Assembly: GCA_016188625.1 (NCBI GenBank)
Contig: JACPHL010000037.1
Span: forward strand, 1-8,976
Direction of reading: 5' to 3'
Length of the DNA: 8,976 nucleotides
Source: Candidatus Rokuibacteriota bacterium
GTDB taxonomy: Bacteria > Methylomirabilota > Methylomirabilia > Rokubacteriales > JACPHL01
Below the pieces are notes generated by a model, which searched no databases, was not told the DNA's origin, and saw only the letters and a program-made list of their open reading frames with translations. Of the stretch, positions 1 through 8,081 are shown in pieces (within the stretch, counting starts at the first letter, position 1; every line of letters begins with the position of its first letter). The position numbers and the translations under genes are program-made.

Positions 1-706
1 GGAACTGGAAGTAGAGGTTGTCCCCCAGCCCGTAGGCGAAGAAGAGCTTGGCGGCCGCGAAGGTCCGGTCGCTCTCGGTGATCCCGAGGACCTGTCGGGC
101 GTAGGTGTCGGCGCAGTAGACCATATCGTGGTGGAGGTGGACGACCCCCTTCGGGAACCCGGTGGAGCCCGAGGAGTAGAGCCAGAGGGCCACGTCGTCC
201 CTTGTGGTGTCGGCCGCGTCGAGCGCGGGGGAGGCCCCGGCGGCCCAGCGGGCGAAGTCGTGCTGGGGGCCCTGGGCCTTGCCGACGACCACGACGTGCT
301 CGAGGCGCGGGGCCTGGCGGAGGACGGGGGCGACCTCGGCCAGGAGCGGCTCGGCGACGATGAGGACCTTGGCCCGGCTGTCCCGGAGCATGTAGAGGTA
401 GTCGGGGGCCTTGAGGAGGGTGTTGACGGGGACCGGGACGGCGCCGATCTTGATGGCCCCGAAGAAAGAACCCACGAACTCCGGGGTGTCGAGGAGCAGG
501 AGCATGACCCGCTGCTCGGGCTCCACGTCGAGGGCCAGGAGCCCGTTCCCGACCCGGTTGGTCAGCTCCTGGACCTGGCGGTAGGTGTAGGTCTTGTCCT
601 CGTAGAAGAGGGCGACCTTGTCCCCCCGCCCCTCGGCGACGTTCTTGTCCACGAACTCGACGGCGACGTTGAACTCGCGGGGGAGATCGACGACGGGTTG
701 AGCCAT
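1..706 (-). CDS. Benzoate-CoA ligase family protein, N-terminal part (runs off the left edge)
   Basis: Adenylate-forming enzyme that would activate benzoate or a hydroxybenzoate to its CoA thioester using ATP, in the cytoplasm. Only the first 235 residues are in the window; the family is usually a little over 500. The start ATG is at 704-706, preceded by a strong GGGAGGTGAG ribosome binding site at 711-720. The protein begins MAQPVVDLPREFNVAVEF, shows the AMP-binding P-loop YSSGSTGFPKG at residues 177-187, and ends in KLFFAYGLGDNLYF, a stretch characteristic of the benzoate-CoA ligase branch of the ANL superfamily. It lies 57 nt downstream of the BoxB-like gene on the same strand, so it is probably the next gene of the operon. 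Family assignment is strong. Whether it prefers benzoate, 4-hydroxybenzoate or another aryl acid cannot be read from this part, because most of the pocket is beyond the edge. Confidence 0.93.
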   Translation of the reverse strand, partial: MAQPVVDLPREFNVAVEFVDKNVAEGRGDKVALFYEDKTYTYRQVQELTNRVGNGLLALDVEPEQRVMLLLLDTPEFVGSFFGAIKIGAVPVPVNTLLKAPDYLYMLRDSRAKVLIVAEPLLAEVAPVLRQAPRLEHVVVVGKAQGPQHDFARWAAGASPALDAADTTRDDVALWLYSSGSTGFPKGVVHLHHDMVYCADTYARQVLGITESDRTFAAAKLFFAYGLGDNLYFQF

Positions 707-1888: not shown

Positions 1889-2683
1889 CTAGCGGCCCTT
1901 GAAGCGGGGGACCCGCTTCGCCTGATAGGCGTCCAGCCCCTCCCGGGCGTCCTCGCTCCGGAAGAGCTGGATCTGCAGCTCCTGCTCCAGGGCGAGCCCG
2001 TCGTAGAGGTCCATCTCCACCCCGGACTGGATTGAGCGCTTGATGTGCCCCACCGCCTTGGCGGCCTTGTTGGGTGGGAGGAACTGCCGGGTGTACTCGA
2101 GGACCGCCTTCATGAAGTCGGCCTCGTCGAAGATGTGGTGGATGAGCCCCAGCTCCAGGGCCTCCTCGAAGGAGAAGGTCCGCCCGGTTGCGATCAGCTC
2201 CAGGGCCCTGGCCCGGCCGATCAGGCGGGCCAGCCGCTGGGTCCCCCCGGTGCCGGGGAGGACGCCCAGGGCGATCTCGGGCAGGCCGACCTTGCCGGCG
2301 TCCCGCCGGGCGAGCCGGATGTCGCAGGCCATGGCGATCTCGAGGCCGCCCCCCACGGTGTGGCCGTTCAGGGCCGCCACCACCAGCTTGGGGGTCTTCT
2401 CGAGCCGCAGGAGGGTCTCGTTGGCGTGGAGGCAGAAGCAGTACTTGAAGCCGGGCTCGGCCCCGGCGAGCATGTTGATGTTGGCCCCGGCCGAGAAGAA
2501 CTTCTCCCCCGCCCCGCGGAGCACCAGGGCGTGGACATCCTCGTCCATCCGGGCGCGGAGGATGGCGTCGTCGAGCTGGCGCATCATCGGGTAGCTGTAG
2601 GTGTTGGCGGGGGGGTCATCCAGCTCGATGACCGCGATCCCCTCCTCCACCCGGTAGTGGACCAGCTCCTTCTCGGTCGTCAT
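1889..2683 (-). CDS. Enoyl-CoA hydratase/isomerase (crotonase) family protein
   Basis: 264-residue single-domain crotonase, cytoplasmic, expected to act on an unsaturated CoA thioester. Visible features are the oxyanion-hole stretch FFSAGANINML (62-72), NGHTVGGGLEIAMACDIRLA (106-125) with candidate catalytic E115, and GLPEIALGVLPGTGGTQRL (133-151) with candidate catalytic E136. These two glutamates correspond to the hydratase pair of mitochondrial enoyl-CoA hydratase, so true hydratase chemistry is possible. It starts at ATG 2681-2683 with TAGGAGAGCGC just upstream, the TAG being the stop of the XRE-cupin gene. In the canonical box pathway the partner of BoxB is BoxC, a crotonase-superfamily lyase of about 550 residues; this protein is half that size and is not BoxC. 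It may hydrate a ring-opened or cyclic dienoyl-CoA intermediate of the operon's pathway, but the substrate is unknown. Confidence 0.9.
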   Translation of the reverse strand: MTTEKELVHYRVEEGIAVIELDDPPANTYSYPMMRQLDDAILRARMDEDVHALVLRGAGEKFFSAGANINMLAGAEPGFKYCFCLHANETLLRLEKTPKLVVAALNGHTVGGGLEIAMACDIRLARRDAGKVGLPEIALGVLPGTGGTQRLARLIGRARALELIATGRTFSFEEALELGLIHHIFDEADFMKAVLEYTRQFLPPNKAAKAVGHIKRSIQSGVEMDLYDGLALEQELQIQLFRSEDAREGLDAYQAKRVPRFKGR

Positions 2684-2692
2684 GGCGCTCTC

Positions 2693-3247
2693 CTATTCCT
2701 CTTTTCCGGTGATCACCCAGAGGGCCCTGGCCTCGCCGCCGCCCAGGTTCTCCCAGGTGTGGGGGGTGCCGCCGTCCAGGTAGGCCGTGTCCCCGGCCTC
2801 CAGGAGGTGCCGCTCGCCGTTATAGTGCAGGGCGACCTTCCCCTGGATCACGTACATGAGCTTCATCTGGCCCGGCTCGATCAGGACCCGCTCCGGCGGG
2901 ACCCCCATGGCGCGGGGGCCGAGGGTGGAGACCACCGCCCGGATCTTCCCCCGGAAGAGCCCGGCGGTCAGGACCTGCCAGCGCTCCGTGGAGCCGTCGA
3001 AGCTGACCACGGCCGCCTCCCGGCGCCGGCCGATGTGGAGCCGGCCGTTGGGGGCCTGCTCGAACAGGGCCGCGATGGGGATGCCGAGCGCCCCCGCCAG
3101 CCGCCCCAGGGTGTGGAGGGATGGGGTGAGCTTGTCGGACTCGATCTGGGAGATCAGGCTCGGGGTCAGGCCGCTCCTGGCGGCCAGCTCCTTCTGCCGG
3201 ATCCCCCGCTCCTTCCGGAGGTCCTTCAGGCGGGCGCCGAGAGACAT
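2693..3247 (-). CDS. XRE-family transcriptional regulator with C-terminal cupin domain
   Basis: 184-residue predicted DNA-binding regulator. Residues 5-60 form an XRE/lambda-repressor helix-turn-helix (RLKDLRKERGIRQKELAARS, then GLTPSLISQIESDKLTPS). A cupin lies at about 114-180, with the second cupin motif GDTAYLDGGTPHTWENLG (152-169) including H163 and N167. The first cupin motif lacks the usual HxH metal residues (MKLMYVIQGKVAL), so the cupin probably binds a small ligand without a canonical metal site. The start ATG (3245-3247) is 5 nt after the selenoprotein stop, with AGGGG 2 nt upstream of the start. Its place inside the operon suggests autoregulation of the aromatic acid genes. It is not the BzdR/BoxR type, which has a shikimate-kinase-like C-terminal domain. 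Operon targets and the effector (perhaps an aryl-CoA) are inference. Confidence 0.9.
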   Translation of the reverse strand: MSLGARLKDLRKERGIRQKELAARSGLTPSLISQIESDKLTPSLHTLGRLAGALGIPIAALFEQAPNGRLHIGRRREAAVVSFDGSTERWQVLTAGLFRGKIRAVVSTLGPRAMGVPPERVLIEPGQMKLMYVIQGKVALHYNGERHLLEAGDTAYLDGGTPHTWENLGGGEARALWVITGKEE

Positions 3248-3252
3248 CGCCC

Positions 3253-3840
3253 CTATGCCTCGCCGCGGGTGATGGCGGCCATGTCCACCTTCTGGAGGTG
3301 GGCATACTCGGGGTTCAGCTCCACCCCGAGGGCGTCCGCCACCCGCACGACGAAGTTGAAGAAGCCGATGATCCCCACCGCGTCCACGATCTCCTCGTCG
3401 GAGAGACCGTGAGCGCGGAGCTTCTCCAGGTCGGCCGCCTGGCAGGTCCAGGCCTCGCGGGAGACCTTGACCGCGAAGTCCAGGAGCGCCCGCAGCCGCT
3501 CGGAGATGGCGGCCGTGGTGTAGTCGGTCTTGATCGCCTCGGCGAAGGCCGCATCCCCGGTCTCGACACGCAGCCACGCTGCGTGGGCCTCCGTTCAGTA
3601 GTGGCAGCGGTTGACCACCGAGACCACGGTCGCGATCGCCTCCCGCTCCACCCGGCTCAACCCGGAGGGGCCGAACATGAGGGTCGAGAAGAGCCCGTTC
3701 CAGGCCCGCGTCAACTCCGGGCGGATCGTCGTGCTCTTGATGATGTTCGGGATCCACCCCCTGACCTTCTGGAGCGACTCGTAGAGGTTTTTGACGTACC
3801 CCTCGGCCTCCTCCGGCTCGATCGTCCGCACCCAGGTCAT
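3253..3840 (-). CDS. AhpD-like / carboxymuconolactone decarboxylase family peroxidase-related protein, candidate selenoprotein (TGA read as Sec82)
   Basis: Read through one in-frame TGA (3595-3597), this is a 195-residue protein of normal length for peroxidase-related AhpD/CMD proteins. Residues 1-81 begin MTWVRTIEPEEAEGYVKNLY and reach VVSVVNRCHY; after the TGA the frame continues TEAHAAWLRVETGDAAFAEA and later SDEEIVDAVGIIGFFNFVVR, then LGVELNPEYAHL, to TAG at 3253-3255. The family carries CxxCxxxH here; this gene has C79-H-Y-U82-T-E-A-H86. Together with E67 the spacing equals that recalled for AhpD (E118, C130, C133, H137), placing Sec at the peroxidatic cysteine. A SECIS-like hairpin starts 9 nt after the TGA. 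The start ATG overlaps the hcrB stop (ATGA) and has a GAGGAGG ribosome binding site. Likely role: thiol/selenol peroxidase or disulfide reductase protecting oxygen-sensitive partners (inference). Alternatives: a nonsense mutation or a sequencing error at this codon, splitting a broken gene into an 81-residue product. Confidence 0.82.
3567..3585 (-). promoter_or_regulatory. Putative bacterial SECIS element in the AhpD-like gene
   Basis: On the minus strand the sequence CACGCAGC-GTG-GCTGCGTG folds into a perfect 8-bp stem with a GUG triloop. The stem begins 9 nt after the in-frame TGA and the loop about 17 nt after it. Bacterial SECIS elements sit directly downstream of UGA inside the coding region, with a short apical loop that has a G in its first two positions at roughly 16-37 nt from the UGA; the E. 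coli fdhF element is at a similar distance. The hairpin lies within codons 86-92 (H-A-A-W-L-R-V), so it coexists with conserved protein sequence. GC-rich DNA makes hairpins common, but position, stem and loop all fit. No SelB binding can be shown from the sequence alone. Confidence 0.7.
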
Positions 3841-4883
3841 CGCGCCTCCTCATCGTTGGCGTGGTTCCGTCCCGCCATCGCCGTCGGCCAGTCGCCGACC
3901 GGCAGGCCGGCCAGCTCCCGGAGGGCTCTAGCCACGTACACCCGCGTCATCCGCTTCCGGTAGTAGTAGACCAGGTCGGTGTTGTCCAGCGGCTTCGACG
4001 GCCGGGCGGCGACCTCCGCCACGCGGTCGATCAGCTCGGGGGTGAGCCGCTCCCCGGCCAGGAGCCGCTCCGCCTCGACCGCCTCCCGCGGCTGGGAGGC
4101 GACCGCGCCGAGGACGATCCGCGCCTCCCGGCAGACCTCCCCCTCCCTCCGGAGCGCGACCGCCACGCCGAGGACCGGGAAGTCGAAGGAGCCGCGCCGG
4201 CGGAGCTTCCAGTAGGTCGCCCGGAGCCCGTCCACCGGCGGGAGCGCGATCTCGGCGACGATCTCCTCGGGCGCCTTGGCCAGGTACTGGATCCCGTCGT
4301 CCCGGTAGAGGGCCGGGAGTGGGATCACCCGCTCCCCGTCGGGCCCCACCAGCCGGACCCGCGCCCCGAGGCTCCAGAGGACCGGGGCGGTGTCCGAGGA
4401 GGAGACCGCCACGCAGCGCGGGCTCCCCGGCGCGACCAGGCAGATGTCGCCGTCCTTCTTCATGCAGAAGCCGATCGCCTTCCGCCAGGCGTAGGACTGG
4501 TTGTAGTAGTTGCAGCGGGTGTCGAGGCAGACGTTGCCGCCGATGGTCCCCATGTTCCGGAGCTGGGGGGTGGAGACGAGATCGGCCGCGCGCGCCAGGG
4601 CCGGGTAGTGGGTGAGGATCTCGGGATGGAGCGAGACCTGGGTCAGGGTCGCCAGCGCCCCGAGGGTCATCCCTTCCCGCGCGCTTCCCCGAATCCCGCC
4701 CAGCTCGCGGACCCCCCGGAGCCCGACCAGGACGCGGGGCTCGAACTGGCGGCGCTTCATGTTGGGGAAGAGGTCGGTCCCGCCGGCGACGACCATGGCG
4801 TCCGGGCCGTGCTCCTGGAGGAGCGACACCGCCCCCTCCACCGAGCGCGGGGTTCGGCAGACAGGGCGAGAACGACACGGCAT
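3837..4883 (-). CDS. hcrB: 4-hydroxybenzoyl-CoA reductase-type FAD subunit (beta) with [4Fe-4S] insert
   Basis: 348-residue FAD-binding subunit of a xanthine oxidase family enzyme, passing electrons between an iron-sulfur donor and the molybdenum centre. FAD-site stretches are VAGGTDLFPNMK (32-43) and TIGGNVCLDTRC (113-124). The insert carrying C124, C140, C148 and C157 (spacing 16, 8, 9) matches the spacing I recall for the four [4Fe-4S] ligands of Thauera aromatica HcrB (122, 138, 146, 155). This extra cluster marks 4-hydroxybenzoyl-CoA reductase and its close relatives, so the family call is firm; the substrate itself is inferred. The first 11 residues (MPCRSRPVCRT) do not look like a normal HcrB start, although PRSVEGAVSLL from residue 12 does. 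The start ATG follows the TAA of the antitoxin-like gene directly and in the same frame, with only a weak GTGGG before it. The stop overlaps the next gene's start (ATGA). Confidence 0.92.
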   Translation of the reverse strand: MPCRSRPVCRTPRSVEGAVSLLQEHGPDAMVVAGGTDLFPNMKRRQFEPRVLVGLRGVRELGGIRGSAREGMTLGALATLTQVSLHPEILTHYPALARAADLVSTPQLRNMGTIGGNVCLDTRCNYYNQSYAWRKAIGFCMKKDGDICLVAPGSPRCVAVSSSDTAPVLWSLGARVRLVGPDGERVIPLPALYRDDGIQYLAKAPEEIVAEIALPPVDGLRATYWKLRRRGSFDFPVLGVAVALRREGEVCREARIVLGAVASQPREAVEAERLLAGERLTPELIDRVAEVAARPSKPLDNTDLVYYYRKRMTRVYVARALRELAGLPVGDWPTAMAGRNHANDEEAR

Positions 4884-5142: not shown

Positions 5143-7566
5143 CTACTCCCGCTTGAGGCTCAGATCCGCCGGCTGGCCGAACGCGGATTCGACGCGGATC
5201 GGCTCGGGGAAGCTGACCCGCGGGAACCGCTCCGGCCCCACCCGCGGCTCCTGCCCCTTGCCCTTCTGGTCGAGCCCCTTCAGGACCTTCTCCGGCGTGA
5301 TCGGGATCTCGTCCACCCGCACCCCGACGGCGTCGTAGACCGCGTTGGCGATCGCCGGGATCAGGGGGAGGAGCGGCACCTGCCCCGCCTCCTTGGCCCC
5401 GAACGGCCCCTCCGGGTCGTTGGTCTCGACCAGGATCGTCCGGATCTCCGGGGTCTCGAGGGTCGTGGGACTCTTGTACTCGAGCATCGAGGGGATCTTG
5501 TGGAGCCCCTTCCGGAAGATCTGCTCCTCCATCAGCGCCTCGCCGAGCCCCATGTAGACCGACCCCTCCACCTGCCCCTCGACCAGGAGCGGGTTGAGCG
5601 CCCGGCCGCCGTCGTGGGCGATCCAGATCTCGAGCGGCCTGACCTCGCCGGTCTCGGGGTCCACCGCCACCTCGGCGACGCAGGCGGTGTAGGAGTAGGC
5701 CGGCGTCGGCCCCACGCCCGCGCCCTTGAACTTCCCGCCCCGCCTCGGCGGTCGATAGGAGCCGGCGGCGGCCAGGGTCCCGTAGGCCGCCTCGGCGAGC
5801 TGGGCGGCCTCGGCGAAGCTCATCCCCCGCTCGGGGTCGTCCCGCAGGTAGACACGGCGGCCGCGCGCCACCAGGCCGGCCGGCGAGACCTCGAGCTTCT
5901 TCGCCGCGGCGTCGAGGAGGAGGCCGCGGAGCTTCTCGGCCGCCTCCTTGGCCGCGTTCCCCATCATCAGGGTCACGCGCGAGGAGTAGCTCCCCAGATC
6001 CACGGGGGTGAGGTCGGTGTCGGCCGTGACCACCCGGATGTCCTCGGGGAGGATCCCCAGGACCTCGGCGACCACGGAGGCGAGGACCGAGTCCGAGCCC
6101 TGGCCGATGTCGATGGAGCCGCAGAAGGCCGCGACCCCGCCGCCCCGGTCGATCTTCACGATGACCCCGGTGTGGGGCATCTCGTTCCAGTAGATCGCGA
6201 GCCCCGCCCCGGTGATGTAGGAGCTGGCCGCGAAGCCCACCCCGCGCCCCGGGGGGAGCCTCCGGTGCTTCTCCCGCCACCCCGAGGCCTCCACGACCCG
6301 GTCGATGCACTCCTCGAGCCCGCAGGTCGTGATGGTCAGGTGGTTGGCGGTCTTGGAGAACGGCTCCACCACCTGCCGCCGGCGCATCTCGGCCGGGTCG
6401 AGGCCGAGCGCCTCGGCGATCTTGTCCAGGTGGACCTCGATGGCGTAGCGCGGCTGGGGGGTCCCGTGGCCGCGCTTGGGGCCGCAGGGGGGCTTGTTGG
6501 TGAAGACCCGGCACCCCTCGAACTTGTAGCGGGGGACCTTGTAGGTGACGGTCTGAAGGGCGCCGGTGTAGAAGGTCGAGGCGACCCCGTAGGAGCCGTA
6601 GGCCCCGCCGTCGAGGATCGAGCGGAAGTGCATCGCCTGGATCGTCCCGTCGCGCGTGACGCCGGTCTTGACCCACATCAGGACCGGGTGGCGGCCGCGG
6701 TGGGCGTAGAAGACCTCCTCCCGGGTCAGGGTGCACTTGACCGGCCGGCCGGTGAGCTGGGCCAGGCGCGCCACGACCAGCTCGTGGCTGAAGGGGTCGG
6801 ACTTCCCCCCGAACCCCCCGCCTACGGGCGTGGCGATGACCCGGACGTGGCTCATGGGGAGCTCGAGGACCTTGGCCAGGGTGCGGTGGACATAGTGGGG
6901 GGTCTGGGTCGAGGACCAGAGGGTGAGCTTCCCGTCGGGGTCCCAGCGGGCGACGGCGGCGTGCTGCTCCATGGGGAGGTGGTTGCTCCCCTCGAAGTAG
7001 AAGAGGTCCTCCCGGATCAGGTCCGCCTCCCGGAACCCCTCCTCGACGTCCCCGAACTCCAGGGAGACGAGCTTGTGGATGTTCGGGCCGTCGCCGTACT
7101 CCTGGATCCGGACCGTCCCCTCGGCCAGGGCCTCCTCGATGGACATGATCGGCGGGAGCGGTTCGTACTCCACCTCGATCAGCTCGGTCGCGCGCTCGGC
7201 CGTCTCCTCGTCCACCGCGGCCACGGCCGCCACCGCGTCGCCGACGTAGCGGACCTTCTCGGTCGAGAGGGCCTCCTCGTCCTGGCTGACCGGGAGGATC
7301 CCGAACTTCACCGGCGGGAAGTCGGCGCCGGTGATGACGGCGAGGACGCCGGGGAGCGCCCGGGCGCGGGAGGTGTCGATCGCCTTGATGCGGGCGTGGG
7401 GGTGCCGGGCCCGGAGGAGCCTGGCGTGGGCCATCCGGGGGAGGATGAGGTCGTCGGCGTACTTCGTCTCGCCGATCACCTTCCCCCAGGCGTCCACCTT
7501 GGGGAGGCGCTTGCCGATGACGGCCAGCTCCTCGGCCCGGCGCGGAGGGGTCTCGACCGGTCCCAT
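5143..7566 (-). CDS. hcrA: 4-hydroxybenzoyl-CoA reductase-type molybdenum subunit (alpha)
   Basis: 807-residue catalytic subunit of a xanthine oxidase family molybdenum enzyme. In its family it carries the molybdopterin cytosine dinucleotide cofactor and reductively removes the para-hydroxyl of 4-hydroxybenzoyl-CoA, yielding benzoyl-CoA. Visible are the N-terminal domain (IGKRLPKVDAWGKVIGETKY, 17-36), PVGGGFGGKSD (247-257), KRGHGTPQPRYA (364-375), IDIGQGSD (485-492) and GPFGAKEAGQVPLLP (720-734). The last motif usually ends with a catalytic glutamate (GxKExGE); here that position is Q729. The start is ATG 7564-7566 with GGGGAGGTGA upstream; 2 nt separate it from the hcrC stop. The frame stays open far upstream to 8925, but that extension crosses hcrC and is not coding. 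The protein is about 40 residues longer than Thauera HcrA (769), through a C-terminal tail rich in Pro and Arg. Other aryl-CoA or hydroxylase substrates remain possible. Confidence 0.93.
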   Translation of the reverse strand: MGPVETPPRRAEELAVIGKRLPKVDAWGKVIGETKYADDLILPRMAHARLLRARHPHARIKAIDTSRARALPGVLAVITGADFPPVKFGILPVSQDEEALSTEKVRYVGDAVAAVAAVDEETAERATELIEVEYEPLPPIMSIEEALAEGTVRIQEYGDGPNIHKLVSLEFGDVEEGFREADLIREDLFYFEGSNHLPMEQHAAVARWDPDGKLTLWSSTQTPHYVHRTLAKVLELPMSHVRVIATPVGGGFGGKSDPFSHELVVARLAQLTGRPVKCTLTREEVFYAHRGRHPVLMWVKTGVTRDGTIQAMHFRSILDGGAYGSYGVASTFYTGALQTVTYKVPRYKFEGCRVFTNKPPCGPKRGHGTPQPRYAIEVHLDKIAEALGLDPAEMRRRQVVEPFSKTANHLTITTCGLEECIDRVVEASGWREKHRRLPPGRGVGFAASSYITGAGLAIYWNEMPHTGVIVKIDRGGGVAAFCGSIDIGQGSDSVLASVVAEVLGILPEDIRVVTADTDLTPVDLGSYSSRVTLMMGNAAKEAAEKLRGLLLDAAAKKLEVSPAGLVARGRRVYLRDDPERGMSFAEAAQLAEAAYGTLAAAGSYRPPRRGGKFKGAGVGPTPAYSYTACVAEVAVDPETGEVRPLEIWIAHDGGRALNPLLVEGQVEGSVYMGLGEALMEEQIFRKGLHKIPSMLEYKSPTTLETPEIRTILVETNDPEGPFGAKEAGQVPLLPLIPAIANAVYDAVGVRVDEIPITPEKVLKGLDQKGKGQEPRVGPERFPRVSFPEPIRVESAFGQPADLSLKRE

Positions 7567-7568
7567 CG

Positions 7569-8048
7569 TCACCTCCCCTGTCGCGCCGCCGCCAGCTCCA
7601 CGGCGTCCAGGATCTTCGTGTAGCCGGTGCAGCGGCAGAGGTTGCCGGCCAGGGCCACGCGGATCGCCTCTCGGCTGGGCCGGGGGTTGTGCTCGAGGAG
7701 GGCCTTGGCGGCCAGGAGGATCCCGGGGGTGCAGTAGCCGCACTGGGCCGCCCCCAGCTCGGCGAAGCTCTGCTGGAGCGGGTGGAGGCGCCCGGCCTGG
7801 GCCATCCCCTCCACCGTGAGGATCTCCCGCCCCTGGCACTCCACGGGGAGGAGGAGGCAGGAGAGGACCGGCTCCCCGTCCAGGAGCACGGTGCAGGTCC
7901 CGCACTCGCCCAGCTCGCAGCCGTGCTTGGTCCCAGTCAGGCCCAGCTCCTCCCGGAGGACCTCCAGGAGGGTCTTGTGGACCGGGGCGAGGACCTGGAC
8001 GTCGTCGCCGTTGACCCGGGGGGTGAGCAGCTCCCGCATCCCCGTCAT
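7569..8048 (-). CDS. hcrC: 4-hydroxybenzoyl-CoA reductase-type [2Fe-2S] subunit (gamma)
   Basis: Small iron-sulfur subunit of the molybdenum enzyme, with two [2Fe-2S] clusters. Using the ATG at 8046-8048 it has 159 residues; Thauera HcrC has 161. The plant-ferredoxin-type cluster is in GCELGECGTCTVLLDG with one more cysteine in LSCLLLP. The C-terminal cluster is bound by AAQCGYCTPGI and GNLCRCTGYTKI (C-x2-C ... C-x-C). The start is uncertain: a TTG at 8058-8060 has GGGGA at a fair distance, the ATG at 8046-8048 has no clear ribosome binding site, and a third choice is the ATG at 8037-8039. All three leave the clusters intact. It is the first gene after the promoter-like sequence at 8086-8115, and its TGA sits inside the ribosome binding site of hcrA (AGGTGACGATG), implying tight coupling. 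Confidence 0.94.
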   Translation of the reverse strand: MTGMRELLTPRVNGDDVQVLAPVHKTLLEVLREELGLTGTKHGCELGECGTCTVLLDGEPVLSCLLLPVECQGREILTVEGMAQAGRLHPLQQSFAELGAAQCGYCTPGILLAAKALLEHNPRPSREAIRVALAGNLCRCTGYTKILDAVELAAARQGR

Positions 8049-8081
8049 CCCATGGAACAATTAATCCCCGATGAAGAGTAT

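Follow-up and report, generated by a model that had tools for sequence, protein, structure and literature searches.

A predicted AhpD-like selenoprotein encoded beside hydroxybenzoyl-CoA reductase-like genes in a Methylomirabilota genome

The window analysed here, an 8,976-nucleotide stretch of a Candidatus Rokuibacteriota genome, carries on its minus strand a gene that almost certainly encodes an AhpD-like (TIGR01926/PF02627) selenoprotein, in which selenocysteine (Sec) would occupy the second cysteine position of a CxxC motif; Sec insertion and a role as a peroxidase are predicted from sequence comparison. The frame opens with ATG at 3840 and closes after 195 codons with TAG at 3255−3253. 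TGA at codon 82 is its sole internal stop, and there are no frameshifts. Automatic ORF calling at this locus yields a product of 81 aa only. The original prediction, that a single TGA splits a 195-codon AhpD/CMD gene and that an annotation would report an 81-residue protein, is confirmed on both counts. The features of the locus are collected in table 1.

Table 1. Features of the window, with the basis for each assignment.
Feature	Position	Strand	Basis
Predicted AhpD-like selenoprotein gene, 195 codons + TAG, TIGR01926 / PF02627	3253..3840	-	read-through translation, Pfam, NCBIfam, PDB relatives
Predicted Sec codon TGA (U82), second residue of CxxC redox pair	3595..3597	-	sole in-frame internal stop; Cys in Cys homologs and PDB relatives
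Predicted bacterial SECIS, 8-bp stem CACGCAGC/GCUGCGUG, GUG apical loop	3567..3585	-	fold; Sec relatives; published model
hcrB-like FAD subunit	3837..4883	-	TIGR03195 290 bits, below cut-off 404
hcrA-like molybdenum subunit, 4-hydroxybenzoyl-CoA reductase	5143..7590 (start approximate)	-	TIGR03194 874.6 bits, below 994.6, best-matching family
hcrC-like [2Fe-2S] subunit	7569..8060	-	TIGR03193 183.7 bits, below cut-off 257.8
XRE helix-turn-helix + cupin regulator, next gene after AhpD	2693..3250	-	Pfam HTH_3, Cupin_2 over cut-off
Enoyl-CoA hydratase family protein	1889..2683	-	Pfam ECH_1 4.9e-54
BoxB-like (benzoyl-CoA epoxidase-like) protein, 371 aa	764..1879	-	TIGR03225 242 bits, below cut-off 499
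Benzoate-CoA-ligase-like gene start, cut by window end	2..706	-	66% identical to G083 protein

The read-through protein contains a CMD domain (PF02627, Pfam E = 8.4e-18) and passes the threshold of the NCBIfam family TIGR01926, ‘peroxidase-related enzyme’ (155.3 bits, cut-off 81.8). Scores were below threshold for the true AhpD profile TIGR00777 (22.1 bits, cut-off 191.95) and for NF041238, the AhpD-related CFYUT (seleno)protein family (86.9 bits, cut-off 175). By its sequence, the protein is AhpD-like and not AhpD itself. The PDB entries 2pfx, 6k40, 2oyo and 2prr are full-length peroxidase-related relatives that align over nearly the whole protein and, in the alignments listed, have Cys where the window protein has its predicted Sec. 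As they carry the same catalytic residues, these solved structures settle the fold of the protein. In the plasmid collection, the matches listed were exclusively Cys-type ‘peroxidase-related enzyme’ proteins of less than 60% identity. The AhpD relay E-x11-C-x2-C/U-x3-H is matched by E67, C79, Y81, U82 and H86, in agreement with the motif (C79-H-Y-U82-TEA-H86) and AhpD-type spacing (E67-C79-U82-H86) first noted for this gene. In Pseudomonas aeruginosa PA0269 the catalytic relay reads E-x11-C-x-Y-C-x3-H (PMC3141380); Mycobacterium tuberculosis AhpD and PA0269 together conform to Glu-x11-Cys-x-(His/Tyr)-Cys-x3-His, with spacing identical to that of the window protein (PMC3141380). Both have Cys at the position of the predicted Sec, however, and overall similarity beyond this core is low.

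Selenoproteins of this kind have precedents. AhpD-like (COG2128) and CMD-domain proteins with a CxxU motif were described in 2005 (PMC1088965) and 2008 (PMC2398784), which bears out the statement that AhpD-like selenoproteins are known in other bacteria, as does a 2026 review (PMC13188914), whose catalogue (Table 1 therein) includes both CxxU families, the AhpD-like one under TIGR01926, and which refers to a genome of the Methylomirabilota in which 63 selenoprotein genes are predicted. With the AhpD-like group (TIGR01926/COG2128; PMC1088965, PMC2398784, PMC13188914) the window protein shares its NCBIfam family, a CxxU motif with Sec at the second Cys, and a SECIS-like loop downstream; likened in this way by family profile and motif, it differs from the catalogued proteins only in its hcr/benzoyl-CoA-type operon and host lineage. 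The CMD-like selenoproteins (PF02627, CxxU; PMC1088965, PMC13188914) have the same Pfam domain and motif but form a broader superfamily, and TIGR01926 describes the window protein better. The predicted gene therefore joins an already known selenoprotein family, and what is new is its operon position and host lineage. Its presentation as a novel Sec form within an hcr operon was correct as to position, which is real, but somewhat overstated, given that the family and its CxxU motif are catalogued and most of the hcr operons examined in the phylum lack the gene.

The hcrC-, hcrA- and hcrB-like genes lie upstream on the same strand, and each finds its best match in the corresponding NCBIfam model (TIGR03193/03194/03195) at a score below the equivalog cut-off; none of the HcrA proteins in the phylum reaches the cut-off of TIGR03194. 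The hydroxybenzoyl-CoA reductase operon of the original prediction stands in outline, from the hcrCAB-, BoxB- and benzoate-CoA-ligase-like genes, although the hcr and boxB matches fall short of equivalog level. The BoxB-like protein shows a large gap when aligned with true BoxB, its neighbour at 1889−2683 is a simple enoyl-CoA hydratase and not BoxC, and a 65-codon ORF between hcrA and hcrB (4884−5081, minus strand) has no family match in Pfam or NCBIfam. The TGA stop of hcrB overlaps the start of the AhpD-like gene as ATGA, which suggests translational coupling of the two. In a genome of another genus (G083), the order hcrA-hcrB-AhpD(Sec)-regulator is kept and is followed by true boxC, boxB and a ligase-like gene, the product of which scores 244.6 bits against TIGR02262 across residues 1−233.

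Whether this position carries functional meaning can be weighed from the other loci of the phylum. Among its best 30 HcrA loci, the AhpD-like gene stands beside hcrB in the window only, G083, read separately, being the second case; in most of the others the XRE-cupin regulator comes immediately after hcrB, and a 62% identical gene in genome G084 has no hcr genes beside it. We rejected the AhpD-like gene as a standard hcr operon component, since most hcr loci examined do not have it; for the same reason its link to the operon is best described as accessory, an insertion between hcrB and the regulator in two genera. It is quite possible, at somewhat below an even chance, that the selenoprotein is real and its place in the operon incidental, with no functional tie to aromatic acid breakdown, although the ATGA overlap in the window and the conservation of the gene order in two genera speak against this. 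A more tentative reading is that a selenoenzyme has been recruited to a hybrid aromatic-acid pathway, where it would be co-translated with the FAD subunit and might serve as a peroxide guard or as a thiol redox partner of the reductase.

The case for Sec itself rests first on the relatives of the gene. A search of 95 Methylomirabilota genomes gave matches in 31, and a scan of the contig database with the AhpD-like protein returned one relative, the Cys form L018. In an alignment of the fetched phylum loci with L018 (n = 30 sequences), the U82 column contains TGA in 22 cases (the window gene and 21 others) and Cys in eight, and no other residue. The 22 TGA-bearing sequences represent 13 genera, and none has an internal TGA outside this column. 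The codon is kept at 62−72% identity in the closest relatives (72% over residues 1−111 in G083, 62% in G084). It had been proposed to check whether U82 aligns with Cys in homologues and whether orthologues in related genomes share the TGA; both proved to be so, the former from the eight Cys homologues together with the PDB relatives. The 113 codons past the TGA, described at the outset as family-like, are indeed so (62% identity with L021, residues 1−178). It is this conservation of TGA in a single column that lifts the observation above chance. The genome also has a second AhpD-like CHYU selenoprotein gene (L020; G000:C110:4102-4635, minus strand), 30% identical to the first. The G083 orthologue (L051, 3097−3735 of G083:C43) has approximately 22 extra in-frame residues (WGLASCRACLAAWPTALGSNCH) after KRDY, an insertion absent in all other relatives.

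All four components of the Sec machinery looked for are present in the same genome. A tRNA-Sec with anticodon tca (UCA) was found on contig C273 (75.7 bits), a call with which ARAGORN concurs; selA (600 bits) and selB (381 bits) lie within 5 kb of it on that contig, and selD (396 bits) is encoded elsewhere (L015; G000:C179:1347-2267, minus strand). This SelD is Sec-coded itself, with the active site GAGUACK read through a TGA. A second tRNA-Sec candidate, on contig C243, was rejected, as ARAGORN calls it a tRNA-Ser. Across the phylum, selB was found in 84 of 95 genomes. Among genomes with a TGA-form AhpD-like gene, the selB search found none in G077, G078 and G088; two of these are drafts 77−81% complete, while G088 is nominally 100% complete. 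A paralogue in G088 (L043; G088:C3:13454-13960) bears the TGA, and neither selB nor tRNA-Sec was found in that genome. The exception probably comes down to a single locus absent from a draft assembly, which is the simplest reading because tRNA-Sec and selB adjoin wherever they are seen.

These observations bear directly on the alternative that a Cys gene recently acquired a nonsense mutation, leaving a pseudogene, or that the TGA in such a gene arose as an error of sequencing or assembly. The source is a draft assembly (2.6 Mb, 344 contigs, 84% complete) and the automatic ORF call stops at the TGA, as such a lesion would have it, but TGA stands at this codon in the 21 other loci, and across 13 genera, and nowhere else in the gene, the frame is free of further stops and frameshifts, and the Sec machinery is complete. 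Conservation of the TGA at the Cys column therefore excludes a sequencing error or a decaying pseudogene, an explanation that we regard as highly improbable.

A SECIS-like hairpin follows the TGA. The UGA is succeeded by 9 nt and then by CACGCAGC GUG GCUGCGUG, in which 3585−3578 pair with 3574−3567 around a loop at 3577−3575; the stem starts 10 nt past the TGA and the loop is reached at nt 18. The published bacterial SECIS model places, 16−37 nt from the UGA, a small apical loop whose first or second nucleotide is G, often with G or U next to it (PMC13188914). The GUG loop fits this model (PMC13188914), and the 8-bp stem with a GUG triloop at the correct downstream distance stands as first described. 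Stems of at least 8 bp occur at SECIS distance after 2.2% of codons in the other genes of the window, and when the peptide is recoded synonymously 5000 times, the exact 8/8 stem arises in 0.3% of cases. Third positions in the gene are approximately 95% G/C, yet the stem includes the A/T-ending codons GCA and CGT. Folding energy was dropped as evidence for the hairpin: over 67 nt it is no stronger than that of dinucleotide shuffles (z −0.20), and 18% of synonymous recodings match it.

Comparison with relatives adds to this picture. The stem recurs at this distance in many Sec relatives; forms such as L025-L035 have CACGGAGC GGC GCUCCGUG at the same place and others CACGGAGA GGC UCUCCGUC, with compensatory changes on both sides of the stem (C-G to G-C and C-G to A-U). 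Over 11 sequences, 90.9% of cells are paired versus 82.7% after shuffling (0/500 as high), and covariation is 0.186 versus 0.075 (1/500 as high); as kin sequences can beat such shuffles without any structure, pairing and covariation together amount to moderate evidence for the hairpin. The Cys homologues L026, L027 and L030 have a near-identical peptide (HGAALRI versus HGAALRV) but use GGC and CGC where the Sec forms use GGA and CGT, losing three of the eight pairs. The closest orthologues, L021 and L022, keep six of the eight and may fold differently, and the window-type stem is absent from the distant Sec paralogues L020 and L037. In a CEYU subfamily (L043, L045-L048), a different conserved hairpin, CCGCUUC-GUC-GAAGCGG, stands three nt farther from the UGA. 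The hairpin thus supports the selenoprotein assignment but falls short of proof, because L021 and L022 pair at only 6/8 positions and the fold is no more stable than those of shuffled sequences.

The imperfect pairing in these nearest orthologues could also be expected if the UGA were a true terminator or a selenium-dependent switch, with the 81-aa N-terminal product predominating and read-through marginal or regulatory, for instance in translation of a downstream regulator. It is well established that all UGA-Sec genes compete with termination, and a regulator gene does lie directly downstream. We nevertheless consider this very unlikely, as the codons beyond the TGA are conserved as protein and the 81-aa piece lacks half of the active-site motif. 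That a suppressor tRNA or altered code inserts Cys or Trp at the UGA is scarcely credible, for although translation tools cannot distinguish Sec from Cys at this codon, TGA is not in general use within the frame, the genome encodes tRNA-Sec (UCA) with SelA, SelB and SelD, and the column partners are Cys, as in Cys/Sec pairs, and not Trp. The selenoprotein reading, supported by the Cys alignment, the Sec machinery and the TGA in 13 genera, is the one that we retain. In a FastTree phylogeny with Sec read as Cys, the deep nodes of which are weakly supported, the Cys forms L026, L027 and L030 nest inside a Sec clade, which suggests a Sec-to-Cys change at these loci; elsewhere on the tree, Sec and Cys forms are interspersed.

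For the AhpD-like selenoprotein, we propose that the ribosome would decode UGA-82 as Sec with the help of tRNA-Sec, SelB and the stem-loop that follows the codon. U82 would then act as the attacking selenolate, primed by a proton relay of E67, Y81 and H86; C79 would resolve it, and the oxidized Se−S bond would be reduced by a thiol system. By analogy with the paired cysteines of M. tuberculosis AhpD and PA0269 (Cys133/Cys51 and Cys130/Cys48; PMC3141380), U82 would stand in place of Cys133/Cys51 and C79 in place of Cys130/Cys48. The peroxidase activity of PA0269 is weak (PMC3141380); a Sec nucleophile should quicken the reaction with peroxides. The likely task would be removal of peroxide, or reduction of disulfides, where the hydroxybenzoyl-CoA reductase/benzoyl-CoA oxygenation pathway meets oxygen. 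Sec insertion at U82 and SECIS function are what we infer from the sequence; a peroxidase activity of TIGR01926 proteins, and the substrate and protective role of this one, would follow by analogy.

The annotation is thereby corrected at a locus that would otherwise pass for a fragment of 81 residues or a pseudogene. Predicted Sec forms of TIGR01926-type AhpD-like proteins emerge as common across the phylum, with exchange between Sec and Cys and a hairpin that is broken in close Cys forms. In the papers searched, we found none that links hydroxybenzoyl-CoA reductase with selenoproteins, and recruitment of the enzyme, if true, would be the first selenium link to this reductase and to an oxygen-using benzoyl-CoA-type pathway. 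Should the operon link prove functional, it would connect selenium with the degradation of aromatic acids by uncultured bacteria of soil or sediment.
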